Assembly (NCBI RefSeq): GCF_014237455.1
Contig: NZ_JABZFL010000051.1
Location: 124,001-188,000, forward strand
Source of the DNA: Desulfobacula sp.
GTDB taxonomy: Bacteria > Desulfobacterota > Desulfobacteria > Desulfobacterales > Desulfobacteraceae
DNA: 64,000 nucleotides
Direction of reading: 5' to 3'
Made by a program: the position numbers and the translations under genes. Position 1 is the stretch's first letter; every line of letters starts with the position of its first letter. Shown here piece after piece: positions 15,651 to 32,998 of this stretch. The notes beneath the pieces are model-generated. The model was not told where the DNA came from. It ran no database searches and saw nothing but the letters and a program-made list of their open reading frames with translations.

Positions 15651-17738
15651 ATGGGCAAATGTATCAATCATCCTGATCGAGAAACCAGTTATATCTGTAT
15701 GAAGCATAATATTTATCTCTGCGAGGAATGTCTGGAGTGTCGTGATCCCGATATCTATTGCAAGTTCAGACCCTCCTGCCCGATTCATTTTATTACGAAA
15801 AAAGGGTTTGACTCTTCAAAAGAAGAAGCTGTTAAGGAAGAACCTGTTAAAGAAGAATGTATCGTCACCTTCGAACCAGGGGGGAAAAAAGTTGCCGTCA
15901 CCCCAGGGACAAATTTATTGGAAGCCTCCCAAAAAGCAGATATTTACATCAATGCTTCCTGCAATGGTAAGGGGTCCTGTGGGAAATGCAAACTGGTCAT
16001 ACAATCCGGGAAAATTGATTCTGAAAAAACATTGCTTTTAAGTGACAAAGAAAAAGAAAAGGGATATGTCCTTGCCTGCCAATCAAAAATTTCTGAAGAT
16101 ATCATAGTCAAAATTCCGGAAGAGACAATCGAAAAAAAATTAAAAGCGGCCGGAATGGGAGAGGCAGCCACCAAAAAACTTTCAGGGCTTGTAGAAAAAA
16201 TAGAACCGATTGTAGAAAAAATCCCCTTTCAGCTTGATTTGCCGACACTGGAGGATACTGTCAGTGATCTTGACCGGTTGAAACGACAGCTTAAAAAACT
16301 TGGATATGACACCTCCAAAATGAATATTAATATCAGGGTAATGCGTCAACTGACAGAGTCGGTCAGGGACGATGACTGGAAGGTCGTGGCTTCCTTACTA
16401 TGGAAAAAATGCTCTTCGGAAATCGTTGATGTCAGCCCGGCCCATGATCGAAAAAAATCTCTTGGCATGGCTGTGGATCTGGGAACAACCTCAATTGTTG
16501 TCTATATTGTGGATATGGCTGATGGTGCCGTACTAAGTGCTGCATCGGGTCATAACAGACAGGCCGCATGTGGTGATGACGTCATCAACCGTATTGTGTG
16601 CTCTGAAAAAGACGGTGTAAAAAAACTAAAAAAAATGGCGATTTCCACTATCAATAATTTAACAAAACAGGCCTTGGACTCAACCGATGCAAACCATAAA
16701 CAGATTGAAAGTATTGTTATATCCGGCAATACAACCATGACCCACCTGCTGCTTGGAATCGAAGCAAAATATATTAGAAGAGAGCCGTATATTCCAACTG
16801 TTTCTGAATTCCCGATTATTAAAGCCAGTGAAATCGGATTAAAGGCTGCATTTTATGCGGGTGTTTTTGTGATGCCGGGACCTGCCAGCTATGTGGGTGG
16901 GGATATTGTGTCGGGTGTACTATATACAGGGTTCCATCAGTTTGAAGATATTACCCTTTTCATTGATATTGGAACAAATGGAGAAATTGTCCTGGGTAAT
17001 AATGAATTTCTTATGACCGCAGCCTGTTCTGCAGGTCCTGCTTTTGAAGGCGGAGGTATCAGGTGGGGCATGCGTGCAGAGGATGGGGCTATTGAAAAGA
17101 TTACCCTTGACCCTGAAACGTTTGACCCTGACTATTTAACCGTAGAAAATAAGCCGGCCCGGGGAATTTGCGGGTCTGGCATGATAGATCTCTTGTCTGA
17201 AATGCTTTTAAAAAAAGTCATTGGTCAGGATGGAAAATTCCAGATTGAACTCAATCACCCAAGATTTACCCTGTTCAACGAAGAACCCGCTTTTATTATT
17301 GAATCTGCAGACAATATTGACTCAGAAGAAGATATTATTTTTACTCAGTCAGATATAAAGAGTCTGATTCTAAGCAAAGCTGCCGTATATGCAGGATTCA
17401 GCATCCTTCTTGAACAGGTTGGGATGGATTTTTCTTCTATCGGCCAGATGATTATCACCGGGGGATTTGGGCAATTCCTCGACATTGAAAAGGCAATAAC
17501 CATAGGATTGCTCCCGGATATTGAAAGAAAAAAATTCAAATATATGGGAAACAGCTCCATTGCAGGTGCCTATATGGCACTTCTTTCCAATACTTATCGC
17601 CAACAGGCCATCGCTATTTCAAATACAATGACATATCTTGATTTTTCAAGTAATAATGACTTTATGGAAGAGTTCACAAGAGCCCAGTTCCTACCTCATA
17701 CCGATGCAGACTTATTTCCAAGCGTTCACACAAAATAA
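15651..17738 (+). CDS. Ferredoxin-ASKHA protein (corrinoid-protein reductive activator-like, DUF4445)
   Basis: 695 residues. Residues 1-47 contain a dense Cys/His cluster (CINH, ICMKH, CEECLEC, CKFRPSCPIH) resembling a B-box-type zinc finger. A [2Fe-2S] ferredoxin domain follows (about 65-150), with CNGKGSCGKC and a later ACQSK. The C-terminal ASKHA ATPase begins MAVDLGTTSIVVYIVD and includes DIGTNGEIVLG and GGFGQFLDIEKA. RamA/RACo relatives use ATP to drive reduction of Co(II) corrinoids. No corrinoid methyltransferase is encoded in the window, so the partner is elsewhere or different. The zinc-finger extension is unusual. Confidence 0.85.
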   Translation: MGKCINHPDRETSYICMKHNIYLCEECLECRDPDIYCKFRPSCPIHFITKKGFDSSKEEAVKEEPVKEECIVTFEPGGKKVAVTPGTNLLEASQKADIYINASCNGKGSCGKCKLVIQSGKIDSEKTLLLSDKEKEKGYVLACQSKISEDIIVKIPEETIEKKLKAAGMGEAATKKLSGLVEKIEPIVEKIPFQLDLPTLEDTVSDLDRLKRQLKKLGYDTSKMNINIRVMRQLTESVRDDDWKVVASLLWKKCSSEIVDVSPAHDRKKSLGMAVDLGTTSIVVYIVDMADGAVLSAASGHNRQAACGDDVINRIVCSEKDGVKKLKKMAISTINNLTKQALDSTDANHKQIESIVISGNTTMTHLLLGIEAKYIRREPYIPTVSEFPIIKASEIGLKAAFYAGVFVMPGPASYVGGDIVSGVLYTGFHQFEDITLFIDIGTNGEIVLGNNEFLMTAACSAGPAFEGGGIRWGMRAEDGAIEKITLDPETFDPDYLTVENKPARGICGSGMIDLLSEMLLKKVIGQDGKFQIELNHPRFTLFNEEPAFIIESADNIDSEEDIIFTQSDIKSLILSKAAVYAGFSILLEQVGMDFSSIGQMIITGGFGQFLDIEKAITIGLLPDIERKKFKYMGNSSIAGAYMALLSNTYRQQAIAISNTMTYLDFSSNNDFMEEFTRAQFLPHTDADLFPSVHTK

Positions 17739-25409: not shown

Positions 25410-27431
25410 TTATTCGTGTTTTTCATATCCCATGGGCAGTTTAGTAAAACGACCGCCGTGAATAACGGGATCACCCTTATATCCCAGTTTTTTAAAATTA
25501 ATATAATCGGTTTTATTGATCAAATGCTCGACATCTCTTCCTTGAGATTTCATATAGGAAAAATCTGTCCCCTTATGGGCAATATTTTTGAAATCAACAT
25601 TGCGATTATCTTGATGACAACGATTACAGGTTTTATCCCCTTTAAGGCTTTCATGGCACTGGACACAGGACAAGGACATCTCCTTTGGCATTACCTCATG
25701 ATCCAGACGCCAGTACATCCAGGTCTCTTTCCATTTATATGAGCCGCTGTAGTCAAGACCGACCGCATCCATACCATCCTGAAAGGCTTTCTCCCAGTCA
25801 AAGTGTTTCCAGTAGGCAGTGCTGTCTTCCTTATTGCGTGGCCAGAGATGGGGAACAAGGAAATAATCATGGTCCGCATCAACCGCCTGGATTCCACCCA
25901 TCATTTTAAAGGGGGTAATTTTGGAACCCGGATCATTTATGGATCCTACCGGTTCTGTAAGGTTAATAGTATCTGCATTAATATTAACCTTGTCACCAAT
26001 GAAAATGCGATTCATATAGCCTGAACTCCATGCATAATTGGGAACTGCCGATTCTTCCCATTTAAACTCACCCTTTTTCTTGTTATAATCGGGCTTGCCG
26101 TATTTATCTTTTTTGGGCTTGCGTTTCTTATCCCCTGCCTTGGACCAGTCCCACCATGTCTTGGTGGGTTTGCATTTTCCATAGACTGGTGCGTGACAGA
26201 CATTACAGTCAAGGGTTTTGGCATGCTTGTTTAAATGGTGATCCAAAAGACTGCCGCAATAATGGGGTTCATCTGAATGACATTGCTGGCAGGTTACCTC
26301 ACCCTCGGCAACCGGTACGGATGAACTTCTTCCTGCTATCTTGTGGTTCCTTGTTGTATGACATTCTGTACAGGTAAAATCATATCCCCCCATGTGAACA
26401 TCACAGTTCCGGTTGGGTTCCAGCAATTGCCTTGACATATCCGCATGCTTCACCGCATCCCCGCCACCGCCATTAAAATGGCATGAACCGCAGCTGGCAC
26501 GGCTTGAATGGCCTACATTTTCTGCAACCAGTTTCAGGTCAACATCTTTTTTGGGCATTCCTGCTCCCGGAGGGTCTTTCTTATACTTGCCAGTGGTATC
26601 ATGGCAGACTAAACAGTCCATTTTTGTCTTATCGGTAAAATCAAAAGAATCATCTTTCCATCCATATCCTGCATGACAGCTTGTGCAACGAGCCTCGTTG
26701 CTTATGGGGCTAATTCAGTAGTTGTTCAGGGCTGTCGTGCCCTTACCGTGCATGATATCCTTTCGATGACCCGTTGTATAGGGTGATGGGCCTTTCCACA
26801 ACCAGTGGGCTGTGGTCAGCATATCTTCTGCCTGGGTATCATGACACCGCAGACATTCGGCAGTCACCTGAAACACATCGGCATTATCCGGCAGTTTGAC
26901 CAGCTCTTTATGATCCGGCACGTTTTGCAAATGACATCCCTTGCAATCTGTTGGACCTTTGGCTTTTTGCTGGTGGCATTCCATACACTGCTGATGGTAG
27001 GCCGCTTTAAGGCCGATTCTCTCTGGATGATCCGGATTAAAGGAGTCCTGGTGACAGGCTGAACATCTTGTCGTTTCCAGCTCATTTTCATCTTTTGGCC
27101 GAAAATGATGGCACTTGCTACAGTCATTGGTAAGATTTGCATGCCGTTTATGGGAGAACCTGACAGGCTCGTAATGGTCTTCTCTTTTTTTAATAATGGG
27201 GCTGTCTAAAAGGAAATAGGCCTCTGTCACATCCTTTAAAGATATGCCGGCATCCATTAAAGATATCCTTCGATGAATTTGGCTGACATCATTGTATTCT
27301 TTAATAAACGGAACTACCTGTTTTGCCCTTTCCTTTGCTTTCTCCTGATCCGGCGCTTTCCAGACCTCTGCCCCGCACAGGGCAGTCGTCAGGATCACCA
27401 GACCTGCGAAGAAAATAATCTTCTTTATCAT
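25410..27431 (-). CDS. Selenocysteine-containing 13-haem cytochrome c (cytochrome c3-like + octahaem tetrathionate-reductase family)
   Basis: 673 residues when the in-frame TGA (26715-26717) is read as residue 239. Signal peptide, then a class-III cytochrome-like domain (about 90-170) with CSKCH, CSACH, CMECH and CKGCH. CLRCH (193-197) and HWLWKGPS open the octahaem-family part, followed by TGA, CTSCH, CLVCH, CGSCH, CTECH, CQQCH, CNVCH, CVQCH and CNRCH: 13 CxxCH in all. Read as a stop, the TGA separates the two halves, and the second has no ribosome site and loses CTSCH. From memory, relatives have Cys at this position, so Sec-for-Cys fits. Start overlaps the HybB-like gene by 4 bases. Periplasmic; terminal reductase or oxidase for a sulfur or nitrogen oxyanion is inferred. 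Confidence 0.8.
26685..26701 (-). promoter_or_regulatory. Candidate SECIS element downstream of in-frame UGA
   Basis: In the leftward mRNA, GCAACG (26701-26696) pairs with CGUUGC (26690-26685) around loop AGGCU. The loop starts 20 nt after the UGA (19 intervening bases), and has G at its second position, matching the general layout of bacterial SECIS elements (short stem, G-bearing apical loop). The loop resembles the AGGUCU loop of E. coli fdhF. Confidence 0.7.
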
Positions 27432-28630
27432 GACGATACCTCCTTAGATTCCTGTAAAACAGGCAGATAGGTCACAGCGACTCTATACACAAACATCAAC
27501 GTTGCGATCAGTCCTAAAGTGACAAAAATTTCGCCGGGTGCAGGGAAATATCCATTTTCAGTCAACGGCGGTTTGTACCCTACAATGAACACATTAACCC
27601 TGTTTAAAATCACACCAAAAACAATCAAAGCTGCCGCTGTAAAAATGCCTTTTCTTGACTCTCTTATTTTTTGAAAAAGCAGCATCACCCATGGTACAAT
27701 TATACCCAAAAGCATTTCTACGATAAACGAATTGGTCTGGTGGGTTCCATCCAGAAGATACACATAGGTTCCCCTGAAAAACATGTCTCCGAGTTTGAGA
27801 AACATGTAGGTTCCCAAAAGAAAAATGGTAATCCGTGTTAAGGGGGTAAGAAAGCTCATCTCGGAATCAAGCTTGAAAGAAGAAGTGGCAATGGTCGTTT
27901 CAAAAACTACCATGGGATAGCCTACGGCAAAGGCGGATGTCAAAAACAAAAGAGGCAGTATGGGAGTATACCATAATGGATGCAATTTAGTCGGAGCTAC
28001 CAGCATGAGCGATCCCAGGCTGGATTGATGCATGCAGGACAACACAACCCCTAATATAATGAATATCCACATGATTTTACCGATAATGGCATCACCAACT
28101 TTTAAAATCATGTCTACCAGACCATTGAATGCGGATAATATACCCGGAAGGTTCACCCTGCCTTTGAATTGTTCCGCAACAATGGGAAAAAATTCAAAAT
28201 AAAGTACATGAAGATAAACCATGACACACATGGCCACCTCAAAAAGTACTGAATTTGTATTCCAGTTAAATATAGGTTTCCAGATGGCCCAGGAACGTCC
28301 GATATCCACCAGAAGACCTAAGACAACAAAGGTATACCCTAAGACAGCCGTTAAAAGAGCCGGCCGTGTAATGGGTTCATAATAATGTTTACCTGCAATA
28401 TGGGCCAGAGCAGCAGTGGTAAACCCGCCTGCAGCTAGAGCAACACCAGTTGCCACATCCACACCCACCCAGAGCCCCCAGGGTCTGGCATTGCTCAGGT
28501 TGGTGACATAGCCAATACCGCCGGTAAATCTGGCAATAATGGAAACAGCGCCAGCTATCATAAAGACCAGCAGTACAAGGACTCCAGGAGTCCAGAATTT
28601 TTTATTTAAAGGACTTGCTTTATGTTCCAT
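27428..28630 (-). CDS. HybB/NrfD-family quinone-interacting membrane subunit
   Basis: 400 residues, about ten transmembrane helices. Family features include ARPWGLWVGVDVATGVALAAGGF near 46-68 and PLLFLTSAFAVGYPMVVFE. NrfD-type subunits bind quinone and pass electrons to or from a ferredoxin-like partner. It overlaps the upstream HybA-like gene by one base and the cytochrome by four, so the three proteins are made together. It probably links the quinone pool to the periplasmic multihaem cytochrome. Confidence 0.88.
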   Translation of the reverse strand: MEHKASPLNKKFWTPGVLVLLVFMIAGAVSIIARFTGGIGYVTNLSNARPWGLWVGVDVATGVALAAGGFTTAALAHIAGKHYYEPITRPALLTAVLGYTFVVLGLLVDIGRSWAIWKPIFNWNTNSVLFEVAMCVMVYLHVLYFEFFPIVAEQFKGRVNLPGILSAFNGLVDMILKVGDAIIGKIMWIFIILGVVLSCMHQSSLGSLMLVAPTKLHPLWYTPILPLLFLTSAFAVGYPMVVFETTIATSSFKLDSEMSFLTPLTRITIFLLGTYMFLKLGDMFFRGTYVYLLDGTHQTNSFIVEMLLGIIVPWVMLLFQKIRESRKGIFTAAALIVFGVILNRVNVFIVGYKPPLTENGYFPAPGEIFVTLGLIATLMFVYRVAVTYLPVLQESKEVSS

Positions 28631-29544
28631 CAGGCACCTCCTTTATCTTCTGGTGTTTCCCCAGTTTTATTTGATTTATACATGAATGCTCCCAGAACGC
28701 TGAAAAGTGCAATCGGTGACCACAGATAACTGAACAGCGAATGCTGTATGGTTTCAGAAAGTTTGGGTAAAGGGTTCTCCGGCAACACGGGCAGGTTTAC
28801 TTTTTCAAATGGCACAGATGCAATATATAGCCATGAGGTTCCCCCCACCTCTTTTTCACCATACACATGATCAATATACTTGCCGGGGTTTTCCTTGAGT
28901 CTTTTTTTAGCCAGTTTTAAAATTGTCTCTCTTTTTCCAAAGGTCAGGGCTTCCGTTGGACAAATAGTTGCACACCCTGGAAGACCGCCTTTCTCGGATA
29001 TCCTGTCATAGCAGAATGTACATTTCATCACCCGGGGAGTAATCGGATCATGGTACTCATAGGCGGGTATTTCAAACGGACAGGCTACCATGCAATATCG
29101 ACAGCCAATACATTTGGTGACATCATATTTGACACTACCATTCTCTTCCTTGGTTAATGCCCCCACAATGCAGGCGGACACACAGGCCGGATCCTGACAA
29201 TGCATGCATTGAACTTTGGCATAGGCCGGAGCCGGTTTGTTACACTCATCGATTTTACCTGTAAAGTACCGGTTTACCACTGTAAAAGCTTTATGATCCG
29301 GCCTTCTGTTTTTTTCAAAAATAGTACAATTACAATTGGGCCTTTCCGGAGCCGGAAGGCTGTTCACCTCACTACAGGCATGTTCACATTTACGGCAGCC
29401 AACACACCGGGTCAGATCCACAAGGCATCCTAAAGGATCTGGCGGCGCCTTTGACTCCCATGCACTGGCAGATGAGGGCAGTGCTGCGGCAGATGCACCG
29501 GCTGCTCCCATGAATTTAAAAAAATTCCGTCTACTAAGTTGCAT
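28630..29544 (-). CDS. HybA/DsrO-like periplasmic four-cluster ferredoxin with Tat signal
   Basis: 304 residues. Tat signal SRRNFFKF (4-11), then four [4Fe-4S]-type motif groups: [37 protein letters not shown] and CTFC with GCATIC. A single membrane helix near the C-terminus ([12 protein letters not shown]) anchors it, as in HybA. Electron wire between the NrfD-like subunit and the cytochrome. No hydrogenase or molybdopterin subunit is in the operon. Confidence 0.88.
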
Positions 29545-29578: not shown

Positions 29579-29815
29579 TTAAAGTCTTGACCCTTTTTTA
29601 ATCCCAAGGCAGATACAACCCGCCATCTTCTTTTTGTAGACCACTTCATCACGGGACCGCCTGATAATCATAATCAGATCCTGTACCACATCAACATCCG
29701 CCAGCATAACTTCCAAAACATCCCCTTTTTCCATAGATTTAAGGCAGCTTTTGCATTTGAAAAGATTAAGAGGTGAAATCACTCCCTTAAGATCTAATAC
29801 AATTTTTGATGCCAT
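29579..29815 (-). CDS. TusA-like protein lacking the catalytic cysteine
   Basis: 78 residues with the TusA/SirA two-layer fold pattern (VLDLKGVISPLNLFKCKSCLKSMEKGDVLEV). The canonical CPxP active-site cysteine is replaced by serine (ISPL), though KCKSC shortly after and CICLG near the end supply other cysteines. It starts the leftward cytochrome operon with a GGGAGG ribosome site. Probably not a standard persulfide carrier; may bind rather than transfer sulfur, or use the shifted cysteines. Family assignment moderate. Confidence 0.65.
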   Translation of the reverse strand: MASKIVLDLKGVISPLNLFKCKSCLKSMEKGDVLEVMLADVDVVQDLIMIIRRSRDEVVYKKKMAGCICLGIKKGSRL

Positions 29816-29858: not shown

Positions 29859-29876
29859 TTGCAACAGGTGTGCCGG
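29859..29876 (-). promoter_or_regulatory. Sigma-54 promoter of the cytochrome operon
   Basis: On the minus strand CGGCACA-CCTG-TTGCA: GG at 29874-29873, ten bases, GC at 29862-29861, a near-perfect -24/-12 element. Start site expected near 29850, 35 bases before the TusA-like gene. Confidence 0.75.
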
Positions 29877-29950
29877 AGATATCATAAAAATAAAAATGTA
29901 TATAACTCACTGGTTTTACATAAAATAATTAATTTTCAACTTTGGGTTGA

Positions 29951-30026
29951 CTGTTTAGAAATTAAATAGTATTTAAACAATCGTTTAAACATCAACATTA
30001 TTTTAATAGTTGTTTAAACGATTAAA
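29951..30026. promoter_or_regulatory. GTTTAAAC upstream activating sites beside regulator 2
   Basis: Palindromic GTTTAAAC at 29983-29990 and 30012-30019, a TTTAAAC half-copy at 29972-29978, and related CTGTTTAG (29951-29958) and TTAAACAG (30022-30029). They lie about 80-145 bp upstream of the -24 element at 29874 and immediately before the regulator gene at 30049, so they can serve both activation and autocontrol. Confidence 0.6.
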
Positions 30027-30048
30027 CAGACATTTGAGAGGAAAGCGT

Positions 30049-31449
30049 ATGAATGAACATGAAATGAATATCTTCTGGAAAAAAATAGTGAATACCATTA
30101 ACGATGGACTGATGTTTATCGGCCCCGAAGGTTCCCTTTTAATGGTTAATAAAGCCTTTGAAACGCTTACCGGGTATACGTCAAAAGAAGCCATCGGCAT
30201 GTCCTGCGAAATATTAGATTGTGACGCCTGTGAAAAAATCATGCAGACAGATAAAAAAACTGCATGGTGTAAGTTGTTTGAAGAAGGCCAGCAGGACATG
30301 AAAAAATGCCGCTGTCTTATCAAATGCAAAGATGGAACTTTCTTGCCGATTTTAAAAAATGCATCCGTACTATGGGATGAAGACCAGACAGCACTTGGTG
30401 TTGTGGAAACTTTAACCGATATTTCTGAACTTACCAAACTGGATGAAAAAGTTCATATTCTTTCCAGGCAATGCGACAAGGAAAATGACTTTTGGGGCTT
30501 GGTGGGCAAATCCCCTGAAATGCAGAATATGTTTGAAATGATAAGAAAAGCTGCTCAAAGCAATGCCCCTGTTATTATTCTCGGCGAAAGCGGAACCGGT
30601 AAAGAATTGGTGGCCAATGCCATCCACCTGTGTGGTTCAAGAAAAAATGGGGCTTTTATTCAACTCAATTGTGCTGCATTGAATGAAGCGGTCCTGGAAA
30701 GCGAATTGTTCGGCCATGCCAAGGGCGCATTTACAGGGGCTTACAGCAACCGGATCGGCCGATTTGAAGCCGCCAATCATGGAGATTTCTTTCTGGATGA
30801 AATCGGTGATATTCCATTGTCTATTCAGACAAAACTTTTAAGGGTCCTTGAGTCGGGCCAATTTGAAAGAGTGGGAGATATTTCACCGATCAAAGTTGAT
30901 GTACGAATCATCACAGCCACAAACAGAGATCTTGATGAGTTGATAGATAAAAATGAATTTCGACAGGATTTGCTTTTCAGAATTAACGTCATCCCGATAC
31001 ACCTGCCGCCTTTAAGAGACAGAAAAGAAGATATCCCTTTATTAATTAATTCTTTTATTCATCGTTTAAATATGCAAACCGGTAAAACAATAAATGGTTT
31101 AGCCCATGATACCATGGAAGCGTTCATGGATTACCACTGGCCGGGCAATATCAGAGAACTTAAAAATGCAATGGAGTATTCTTTTGTTACCACTGAGGGG
31201 CCCCTTATCCAATTAGACCATTTGCCCAAGAAGATCGGTACGGCACAAAAAGCACCCCTTTCTCCCGTCCTTCAATTAACTGCAGACGAGGCCTTGCCCA
31301 GTGAAAAATTACAATTAATCGAAGCACTCAAACAGACAAACGGCAACCAGACAAAGGCGGCAAAAATTCTTAATATCAACAGGGTAACCGTTTGGAACCG
31401 TATGAGAAAATACGGTCTTGATCTTAAAAAAATCTTGTCGGTACACTAG
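30049..31449 (+). CDS. Sigma-54 activator 2: cysteine-rich PAS, AAA+, Fis-type HTH
   Basis: 466 residues from the ATG at 30049 (GAGAGGAAA ribosome site); an upstream TTG at 30010 would lie inside the operator repeats and is rejected. The PAS domain carries cysteines near 53, 58, 61, 74, 87, 89 and 93. AAA+ motifs [14 protein letters not shown] and GDFFLDEIGD are intact. The HTH (TKAAKILNINRVTVWNRMRKYGLDL) differs from regulators 1 and 3, matching a different DNA element. It is divergent from the cytochrome operon it probably activates, and its 3' end overlaps the convergent ASKHA gene by 26 bases. Confidence 0.9.
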   Translation: MNEHEMNIFWKKIVNTINDGLMFIGPEGSLLMVNKAFETLTGYTSKEAIGMSCEILDCDACEKIMQTDKKTAWCKLFEEGQQDMKKCRCLIKCKDGTFLPILKNASVLWDEDQTALGVVETLTDISELTKLDEKVHILSRQCDKENDFWGLVGKSPEMQNMFEMIRKAAQSNAPVIILGESGTGKELVANAIHLCGSRKNGAFIQLNCAALNEAVLESELFGHAKGAFTGAYSNRIGRFEAANHGDFFLDEIGDIPLSIQTKLLRVLESGQFERVGDISPIKVDVRIITATNRDLDELIDKNEFRQDLLFRINVIPIHLPPLRDRKEDIPLLINSFIHRLNMQTGKTINGLAHDTMEAFMDYHWPGNIRELKNAMEYSFVTTEGPLIQLDHLPKKIGTAQKAPLSPVLQLTADEALPSEKLQLIEALKQTNGNQTKAAKILNINRVTVWNRMRKYGLDLKKILSVH

Positions 31450-32998
31450 GAAAACTTAGCTTTTTAACAAAAACATCTTGAAAATTTTGGTTACAGGCAA
31501 GATCCACAACTATAACCTTATTTGCTATCTGTATCGCTTTATCAAGAAAAGCATTATCACACAGAGCCATAATGGCTCCGGCTCCGGCTGAGTTCCCTGC
31601 AACTTCTACCCTGTTCAGATCCATGGCCGGGATCATTCCCAGGGTCATCATATCCTTTTTATCAAGAAATGATCCAAAAGCTCCGGCAATAATAATTTTT
31701 TCAGGTTCATCAAGCCCTGCTTCCTTTAGAAGAAATTCAATCCCTGTAATCAATGCCCCTTTACCCAACTGGACAGAGCGGATATCCTTCTGACTGATAA
31801 AGATTGCAGAGCCATCCTGAGAAGAATCTTCCGGAACGATAATATATTGCTTATTCTTATTTTGGAACGCACCGCCCGGGTCTATGATCTTTTTTTGACA
31901 AAACTGGGTCACAGCACTGATAACACCGGTTCCACAAATTCCAGACGGCTTCAAGCCGGAAGAATTCGACGGGTTGATAATGGTGTATTGGGGCAAGTCT
32001 TCCAGGTTTTTTATTTGAACCGTATTGATGGCACCCGGGATTGCCTGCATCCCACAGGACAGGGTTGCACCTTCAAATGCCGGGCCGGTTGCACAGGATG
32101 TCGCAAAAAATTGGTCTTTTCCTTTCAGCATCAATTCCCCGTTGGTACCCAGATCCACAAGCAGGGTTCCATCCGGTTGATTTTCAAGATCAACTGCCAG
32201 GGTTGCACTAAGGATATCTCCTCCGATAAAACCGGATACCTGGGGCAGCAGTTGAATTGAAAAATCTTTTATTTTAAAGCCCAGATCATTGGATTGGATT
32301 TTTTTTGCTTTATAAAAAGCCGGCTGGTAAGGAGAAACTCCAATGGATTTTGGATCCACACCTGCAAATATATGGATCATGGTTGGATTACCCACCGTCA
32401 CCATTTGAGAAATCATCTCCTCTTTAAGATCAAGGGATGCTAAAAGTTCTTTGATCCCCCACTCTATTGCCTTGACAACCAGTTTCTGCAAATGTCCAAG
32501 ATTTTTTTCTTCCTGGCCGATAGCACTGATCCGACTCATAACATCATCCCCATACAGAGCCTGGGGATTTTTTACGGCCAGCGAAGAAAGCACCCTGCCT
32601 TTAGTTGTGTTGCAAAAGTATACGGCAATGGTTGTTGTACCAAGATCCACGGCAATGCCATAGCTATCTTTACCGTTCACATTTTTAAACCTGTCCTTGA
32701 ATGCTTCAGGAAAGGAGACTGCCGCTTTACTGATAATATGGGATGACAGCATGGATGATTCCGGGATCTCAATTGAAATATCATCTGAAATGATGACTTG
32801 ACAGGCTTCTTTAAATTCACTATCCCCGTTTTCTGCAACAACCTTGACCTGGCATTTTTTGCAGACACCTTTACCGCCGCAATCAGATCTCAAAAAAATG
32901 CTTTTATTCATGAGTGATTCCATCAGAGTTCTTTCGGGTCTTGCTTCAATTCGCCTGCCATGAGGGAAGAGGTGAATATAGCATTTCTTATTTGACAT
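31424..32998 (-). CDS. Ferredoxin-ASKHA protein (corrinoid-protein reductive activator-like, DUF4445)
   Basis: 524 residues. N-terminal [2Fe-2S] domain with CGGKGVCKKC near 40-49 and a later ACQV; then the linker and ASKHA ATPase domain starting GIAVDLGTTTIAVYFCN, with LLVDLGTNGELMLKG and IIAGAFGSFLDKKD. Shorter than the paralogue at 15651, lacking the zinc-finger-like N-terminus. It lies 26 bases downstream of the aap ATPase gene in the same direction, so it may be the last gene of that operon. Activated partner unknown. Confidence 0.85.
   Translation of the reverse strand: MSNKKCYIHLFPHGRRIEARPERTLMESLMNKSIFLRSDCGGKGVCKKCQVKVVAENGDSEFKEACQVIISDDISIEIPESSMLSSHIISKAAVSFPEAFKDRFKNVNGKDSYGIAVDLGTTTIAVYFCNTTKGRVLSSLAVKNPQALYGDDVMSRISAIGQEEKNLGHLQKLVVKAIEWGIKELLASLDLKEEMISQMVTVGNPTMIHIFAGVDPKSIGVSPYQPAFYKAKKIQSNDLGFKIKDFSIQLLPQVSGFIGGDILSATLAVDLENQPDGTLLVDLGTNGELMLKGKDQFFATSCATGPAFEGATLSCGMQAIPGAINTVQIKNLEDLPQYTIINPSNSSGLKPSGICGTGVISAVTQFCQKKIIDPGGAFQNKNKQYIIVPEDSSQDGSAIFISQKDIRSVQLGKGALITGIEFLLKEAGLDEPEKIIIAGAFGSFLDKKDMMTLGMIPAMDLNRVEVAGNSAGAGAIMALCDNAFLDKAIQIANKVIVVDLACNQNFQDVFVKKLSFPSVPTRFF

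Follow-up and report, generated by a model that had tools for sequence, protein, structure and literature searches.

One gene or two on the minus strand

Two ORFs on the minus strand of the 64 kb window (the whole stretch of Desulfobacula sp. DNA that was analysed), at 27431-26715 (238 aa) and 26621-25410 (403 aa), raise the question of whether they are separate genes or one gene in which a TGA codon is read as an amino acid. The initial annotation had proposed to join them into a single, probable selenoprotein gene. Both ORFs lie in one common frame, and the sole interruption between them is the TGA at 26717-26715 (minus strand). Translation through this codon gave 673 aa with U at residue 239, confirming that the two frames can be read as one gene split by a TGA.

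In the read-through translation ISPISNEARCTSCHAGYGWK stands directly after the TGA. The haem motif CTSCH lies outside both halves when the ORFs are begun at ATG and, as had been proposed, is restored by read-through. The first ORF is preceded by a strong ribosome site, AAGGAGG at 27445-27439. The downstream half had been described as lacking such a site, and none was visible at the ATG at 26621, which is positioned inside a haem domain. Just three TGA codons in the 64 kb window are flanked on each side by over 100 open codons; the other two (24051 and 41862) are antisense to ordinary ORFs, and the window yielded no further convincing case of a gene split by TGA. The coordinates of the gene and its surroundings are collected in Table 1. 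A search with Rfam at the gathering threshold gave no match anywhere in the window. A sequencing error, named in the initial annotation as a possible source of the TGA, was ruled out by the recurrence of the same TGA in dozens of independent genomes.

Table 1. Features of the predicted selenoprotein locus (positions in the window).
Feature	Position	Strand	Remarks
13-haem OTR-family selenoprotein gene (predicted)	25410..27431	-	single gene, 673 codons
bSECIS-like hairpin GCAACG-AGGCU-CGUUGC	26685..26701	-	starts 14 nt after UGA; loop 26695-26691
CTSCH, catalytic haem II attachment motif, residues 249-253	26673..26687	-	second CXXCH of OTR core
In-frame TGA read as selenocysteine, U239 (predicted)	26715..26717	-	aligns with Cys64 of 1SP3 chain
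Lys328, equivalent of residue 153 of 1SP3 chain; in GGGGDAVKH	26448..26450	-	alignment; presumed haem II lysine ligand
HmcC/HybB-like NrfD-family membrane subunit, quinone side	27428..28630	-	PF03916; NF045714 E 2e-81, below cut-off
HmcB/HybA-like periplasmic 4Fe-4S protein	28630..29544	-	NF008134 above cut-off; NF045715 E 2.1e-101
TusA-like 78-aa protein, first gene of unit	29579..29815	-	PF01206, 33.2 bits (cut-off 28.6)
Sigma-54-type -24/-12 promoter motif GGCACACCTGTTGCA (predicted)	29860..29874	-	upstream of TusA-like gene; motif match
Divergent PAS/sigma-54 activator	30010..31449	+	PF00158, PF13426, PF02954

The read-through product resembles a 13-haem cytochrome

Residues 186-595 of the read-through protein matched the TIGR04315 profile of the octahaem tetrathionate reductase (OTR) family with 485.8 bits against a cut-off of 375, and the best PDB match was 1sp3, the Shewanella octahaem cytochrome (E 3.4e-118). 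An AlphaFold model of moderate confidence (pLDDT 65), which is haem-free, superposed on 1sp3 with a Z score of 29.4 and an rmsd of 3.2 over 414 aligned residues. We counted 13 CXXCH motifs: four in an N-terminal c3-like part, eight in the OTR core (approximately residues 173-595) and one at the C-terminus. PF02085 matched residues 84-167 and PF11783 residues 424-595; the N-terminal tetrahaem part also resembles the C-terminal part of HmcA. A signal peptide at the N-terminus was judged by eye. The 13 motifs, together with a TIGR04315 score above the cut-off, bear out the assignment to a 13-haem cytochrome of the octahaem family. The product is very probably a periplasmic 13-haem cytochrome of the OTR/TIGR04315 family in which UGA-239 is decoded as selenocysteine.

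Compared with OTR of Shewanella oneidensis (1SP3, TIGR04315), the octahaem core is 42% identical over 414 aligned residues, and the catalytic haem II motif, the GGGGDAVKH lysine and the surroundings of the Cys site are alike. The differences are the predicted Sec in place of Cys64, the extra N-terminal tetrahaem part, the C-terminal 13th haem and an HmcB-HmcC operon of its own.

The TGA occupies a near-invariant cysteine position

U239 stands 10 residues before CTSCH. In an alignment of 140 family members its column contained 75 Cys, 64 in-frame TGA and a single Thr; the cysteine predicted for OTR-family proteins at this position is thus found, as Cys64 of OTR among others, and Cys or Sec occupies the site in 139 of the 140 homologues. 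Lys328 is invariant in a 29-sequence alignment and matches Lys153, which we take to be the haem II lysine ligand of OTR. In OTR, catalysis takes place at haem II (PMC4484225), and a lysine serves as a ligand of the active-site haem (PMC12285233). Retention of Cys or Sec in all homologues but one, beside the catalytic haem motif, suggests that chemistry takes place at the site. The exception, L112, is alone in the family in having neither residue: its site holds Thr (NNTTIS), and it may have lost catalysis or changed substrate.

Two candidate SECIS hairpins are frozen at the codon level

The initial annotation had pointed to a hairpin after the UGA with the compact stem and G-containing apical loop of bacterial SECIS elements. 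Such a hairpin is present at 26701-26685, its apical loop beginning 20 nt after the UGA. Its folding energy, compared with shuffles, was unremarkable when taken alone (z -0.18). As folding energy was uninformative, we turned to constraint on codons. An 18 nt sequence, AGCAACGAG(G/T)CTCGTTGC, begins 13 nt after the TGA in 39 of 39 13-haem TGA genes, the one in the window included; the form also given as AGCAACGAG(G/T)CUCGUUGC is likewise the same in all 39. Only one loop base varies (AGGCU or AGUCU). It is this invariance across relatives that makes the hairpin more than a chance structure. In Cys homologues the corresponding third positions vary freely, and the hairpin is absent.

With three 8-haem genes added, the set carrying this type I hairpin comprised 42 genes. 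Among its 77 residue-invariant columns (Met and Trp left out), only five used a single codon: the TGA, Asn+6, Glu+7, Arg+9 and Cys+10, the last four of which lie in the hairpin. Most 8-haem Sec genes (24) carry a type II hairpin, CUGGUGC-AGGU-GCACCAG, at the same site, and there the single-codon columns were again the TGA and the hairpin codons. L113, L115 and L116 have a near relative of the type II hairpin. Within each type the stem is invariant, and hence no compensatory base change was seen. The hairpin is predicted to be a bacterial SECIS element acting on UGA-239.

The residue at +8 from the site follows the hairpin class: it is usually Pro in Cys homologues, Ala or Ser with type I and Cys with type II. 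Two Cys members nested inside the 13-haem Sec clade, from Desulfospira (L019) and Desulfobacter vibrioformis (L026), have Pro at +8 and neither hairpin nor TGA. We infer from this pattern that the hairpin dictates the +8 residue, the protein following the RNA. The type II/III Sec genes (L113, L115, L116, L120, L130-L142 and L144-L153) share an extra Cys at Sec+8 in the motif NWC(R/S)CTxCH; most Cys homologues have Pro at that position. This cysteine is possibly a selenenyl-sulfide partner of Sec or a side effect of the hairpin.

Selenium machinery and probable decoding of UGA-239

The search for selA, selB, selC and selD recommended by the initial annotation found all four: profiles recovered selB (346 bits), selA (597 bits) and selD (371 bits), and the genome has a tRNA-Sec (selC) with anticodon UCA. 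At a strict threshold tRNA-Sec was detected in 74 of 80 genomes with the family. Two of the six negative genomes carry TGA genes (G168 and G112), and both have selB above the cut-off. Close to its start, the selD gene of the Desulfobacula genome is interrupted in frame by a TGA (L097 1528-1530, G000:C37), which a GAUCCAGGGACGCUGGAUC hairpin follows; selD is thus probably itself a selenoprotein gene.

Might the TGA nevertheless be a genuine stop, the second ORF being a remnant or separately started (a pseudogene, a sequencing error or two subunits)? TGA normally terminates genes here, being the stop of 10 of the 37 genes in the window, which indicates that the code is otherwise standard, and ORF callers cut the gene at this codon. 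Termination is scarcely credible, however, when the TGA recurs with an open frame on both sides in 39 diverse 13-haem genes and many 8-haem genes, the hairpin codons are frozen, and the downstream frame, 55-92% conserved in relatives, begins inside a haem domain at an ATG that lacks a ribosome site. Read-through with insertion of another amino acid (Cys or Trp), via a suppressor tRNA or a changed code, would be compatible with the Cys found in homologues, since insertion of Cys would keep function. It is nonetheless very unlikely: many other genes end in TGA, the window has no second convincing TGA-split gene, and the frozen bSECIS-like hairpin is accompanied by a full Sec system with a UCA tRNA-Sec. 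We therefore retain selenocysteine as the preferred reading of UGA-239.

Distribution and exchange of Sec and Cys

An even draw of the phylum comprised 395 genomes. The family was encoded, at an E-value of 1e-60 or below, in 69 of them, 30 of which had a member with one in-frame TGA; its position was verified at the retrieved loci. A tree built without the columns of the site, and repeated with 63 rows, requires seven Sec/Cys changes, at least six of which are forced by the starred branches. A tree with all Sec rows in one clade was rejected (p-AU 2e-65), and with it a single origin of Sec; one clade for the 13-haem Sec rows was rejected as well (p-AU 3e-6). The groups in these tests were defined by the residue and not by the tree. 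Judged from these sequences, the lineage has swapped the site residue between sulfur and selenium several times, with at least six to seven switches. Parsimony alone gives no direction for each change. The two nested Cys members, L019 and L026, look like reversions. Their genomes (G397 and G399) keep tRNA-Sec, which indicates that Cys there was not a consequence of losing the Sec system.

A second, distant family member in the Desulfobacula genome (L154, G000:C99:2448-3749) has Cys at the site and lacks the N-terminal part and the HmcB/HmcC neighbours. Plasmid records contained distant 8-haem relatives only.

The gene lies in an Hmc-like operon

In all 13-haem loci with sufficient flanking sequence, whether of the Sec or the Cys form, HmcB- and HmcC-like genes lie directly upstream of the cytochrome gene. 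The 8-haem loci with long flanks are without them, save for weaker homologues downstream in L083. The N-terminus of the HmcB-like protein is twin-arginine-like (PF10518, weak). By synteny, the TusA-like gene heads the unit here and in 16 relatives, a subset of those examined. Similar sigma-54-type motifs precede hmcB in 11 relatives, and the PAS/sigma-54 activator, divergent in most relatives, is the probable regulator of the operon. Between the activator and the operon are repeated GTTTAAAC-type motifs (29930-30020), which are possible activator sites. The window also encodes two RACo-type corrinoid activation proteins (15651-17738 and 31424-32998).

Proposed mechanism and substrate

In the mechanism that we propose, SelA/B/C/D and the in-gene bacterial SECIS hairpin would decode UGA-239 as selenocysteine, and Sec would replace the near-invariant Cys ten residues ahead of the catalytic haem II motif. 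Electrons would pass from menaquinol to the HmcC-like membrane protein, then to the HmcB-like FeS protein, the N-terminal tetrahaem part and finally the octahaem core. In the core, attack by the selenolate on the substrate would form an adduct, to be reduced by haem II. The most likely substrate would be tetrathionate, polysulfide or another S-S compound, with nitrite or hydroxylamine possible. We infer the route and direction of electrons, the substrate and the Sec chemistry from the predicted components. An S-S compound is favoured because the family has tetrathionate activity and, weakly, because of the TusA-like neighbour; it is a tentative choice, held at somewhat less than even confidence, and tetrathionate reductase is used here as a family name.

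It is also possible, though we lean against it, that the selenoprotein serves chiefly to conduct electrons or to reduce nitrogen oxides, and that Sec would act in it as a redox relay or haem II ligand and not as an S-S nucleophile. OTR reduces nitrite and hydroxylamine besides tetrathionate (PMC4484225), the HmcBC partners resemble electron-transfer modules, and the haems are many. Conservation of Cys or Sec next to the catalytic haem motif, with one exception among 140 relatives, speaks against such a role, and the TusA-like gene found in a subset is a weak hint of sulfur. Returning to the selenolate mechanism, an unlikely but conceivable extension is that an encoded selenolate lies at, or even ligates, the catalytic haem, at a site that has switched between Cys and Sec six times or more and is served by two SECIS hairpins of separate origin, and that Cys+8 of the 27 type II/III genes could pair with Sec as a selenenyl-sulfide.

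The locus would connect multihaem respiratory enzymes of sulfate reducers with selenium biochemistry, within a family that has no settled physiological substrate. Close relatives differing at the site (Desulfocicer with Sec; Desulfospira and Desulfobacter vibrioformis with Cys) form a natural series for testing Sec beside a catalytic haem. Because mechanical ORF prediction cuts these genes in two, the catalytic motif is hidden, and the number of Sec forms in the family is probably underestimated.

Relation to known systems

The initial annotation knew of no described Sec version, a view that has to be corrected: a 2026 review tabulates TIGR04315 with one Sec, WP_331457571.1, as 'GenBank annotated' (PMC13188914). 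That entry concerns the same family, likewise with one Sec; it is a table line only, with no motif or analysis. The papers that we searched contained no 13-haem or Sec-containing cytochrome of this kind, although an earlier description may exist. The 13-haem HmcB/HmcC-linked operon, the two hairpins and the repeated Sec/Cys switching are apparently unreported. ExtKL of Geobacter (NF040886) is similar in having a predicted Sec in a c-type multihaem cytochrome; unlike the present protein, it has five haems, and it is a separate family in the PMC13188914 table.

With its HmcB- and HmcC-like genes, the upstream region recalls the Hmc complex of sulfate reducers (HmcA-HmcB-HmcC) and HybA-HybB, and the tetrahaem part at the N-terminus of the cytochrome has its match in the C-terminal part of HmcA. 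The cytochrome here is an OTR fusion, whereas the Hmc complex has the 16-haem HmcA. Scores fell below the Hmc equivalog cut-offs for HmcB (339 versus 420 bits), HmcC (274 versus 550) and HmcA (65 versus 400), so the operon is Hmc-like rather than Hmc.
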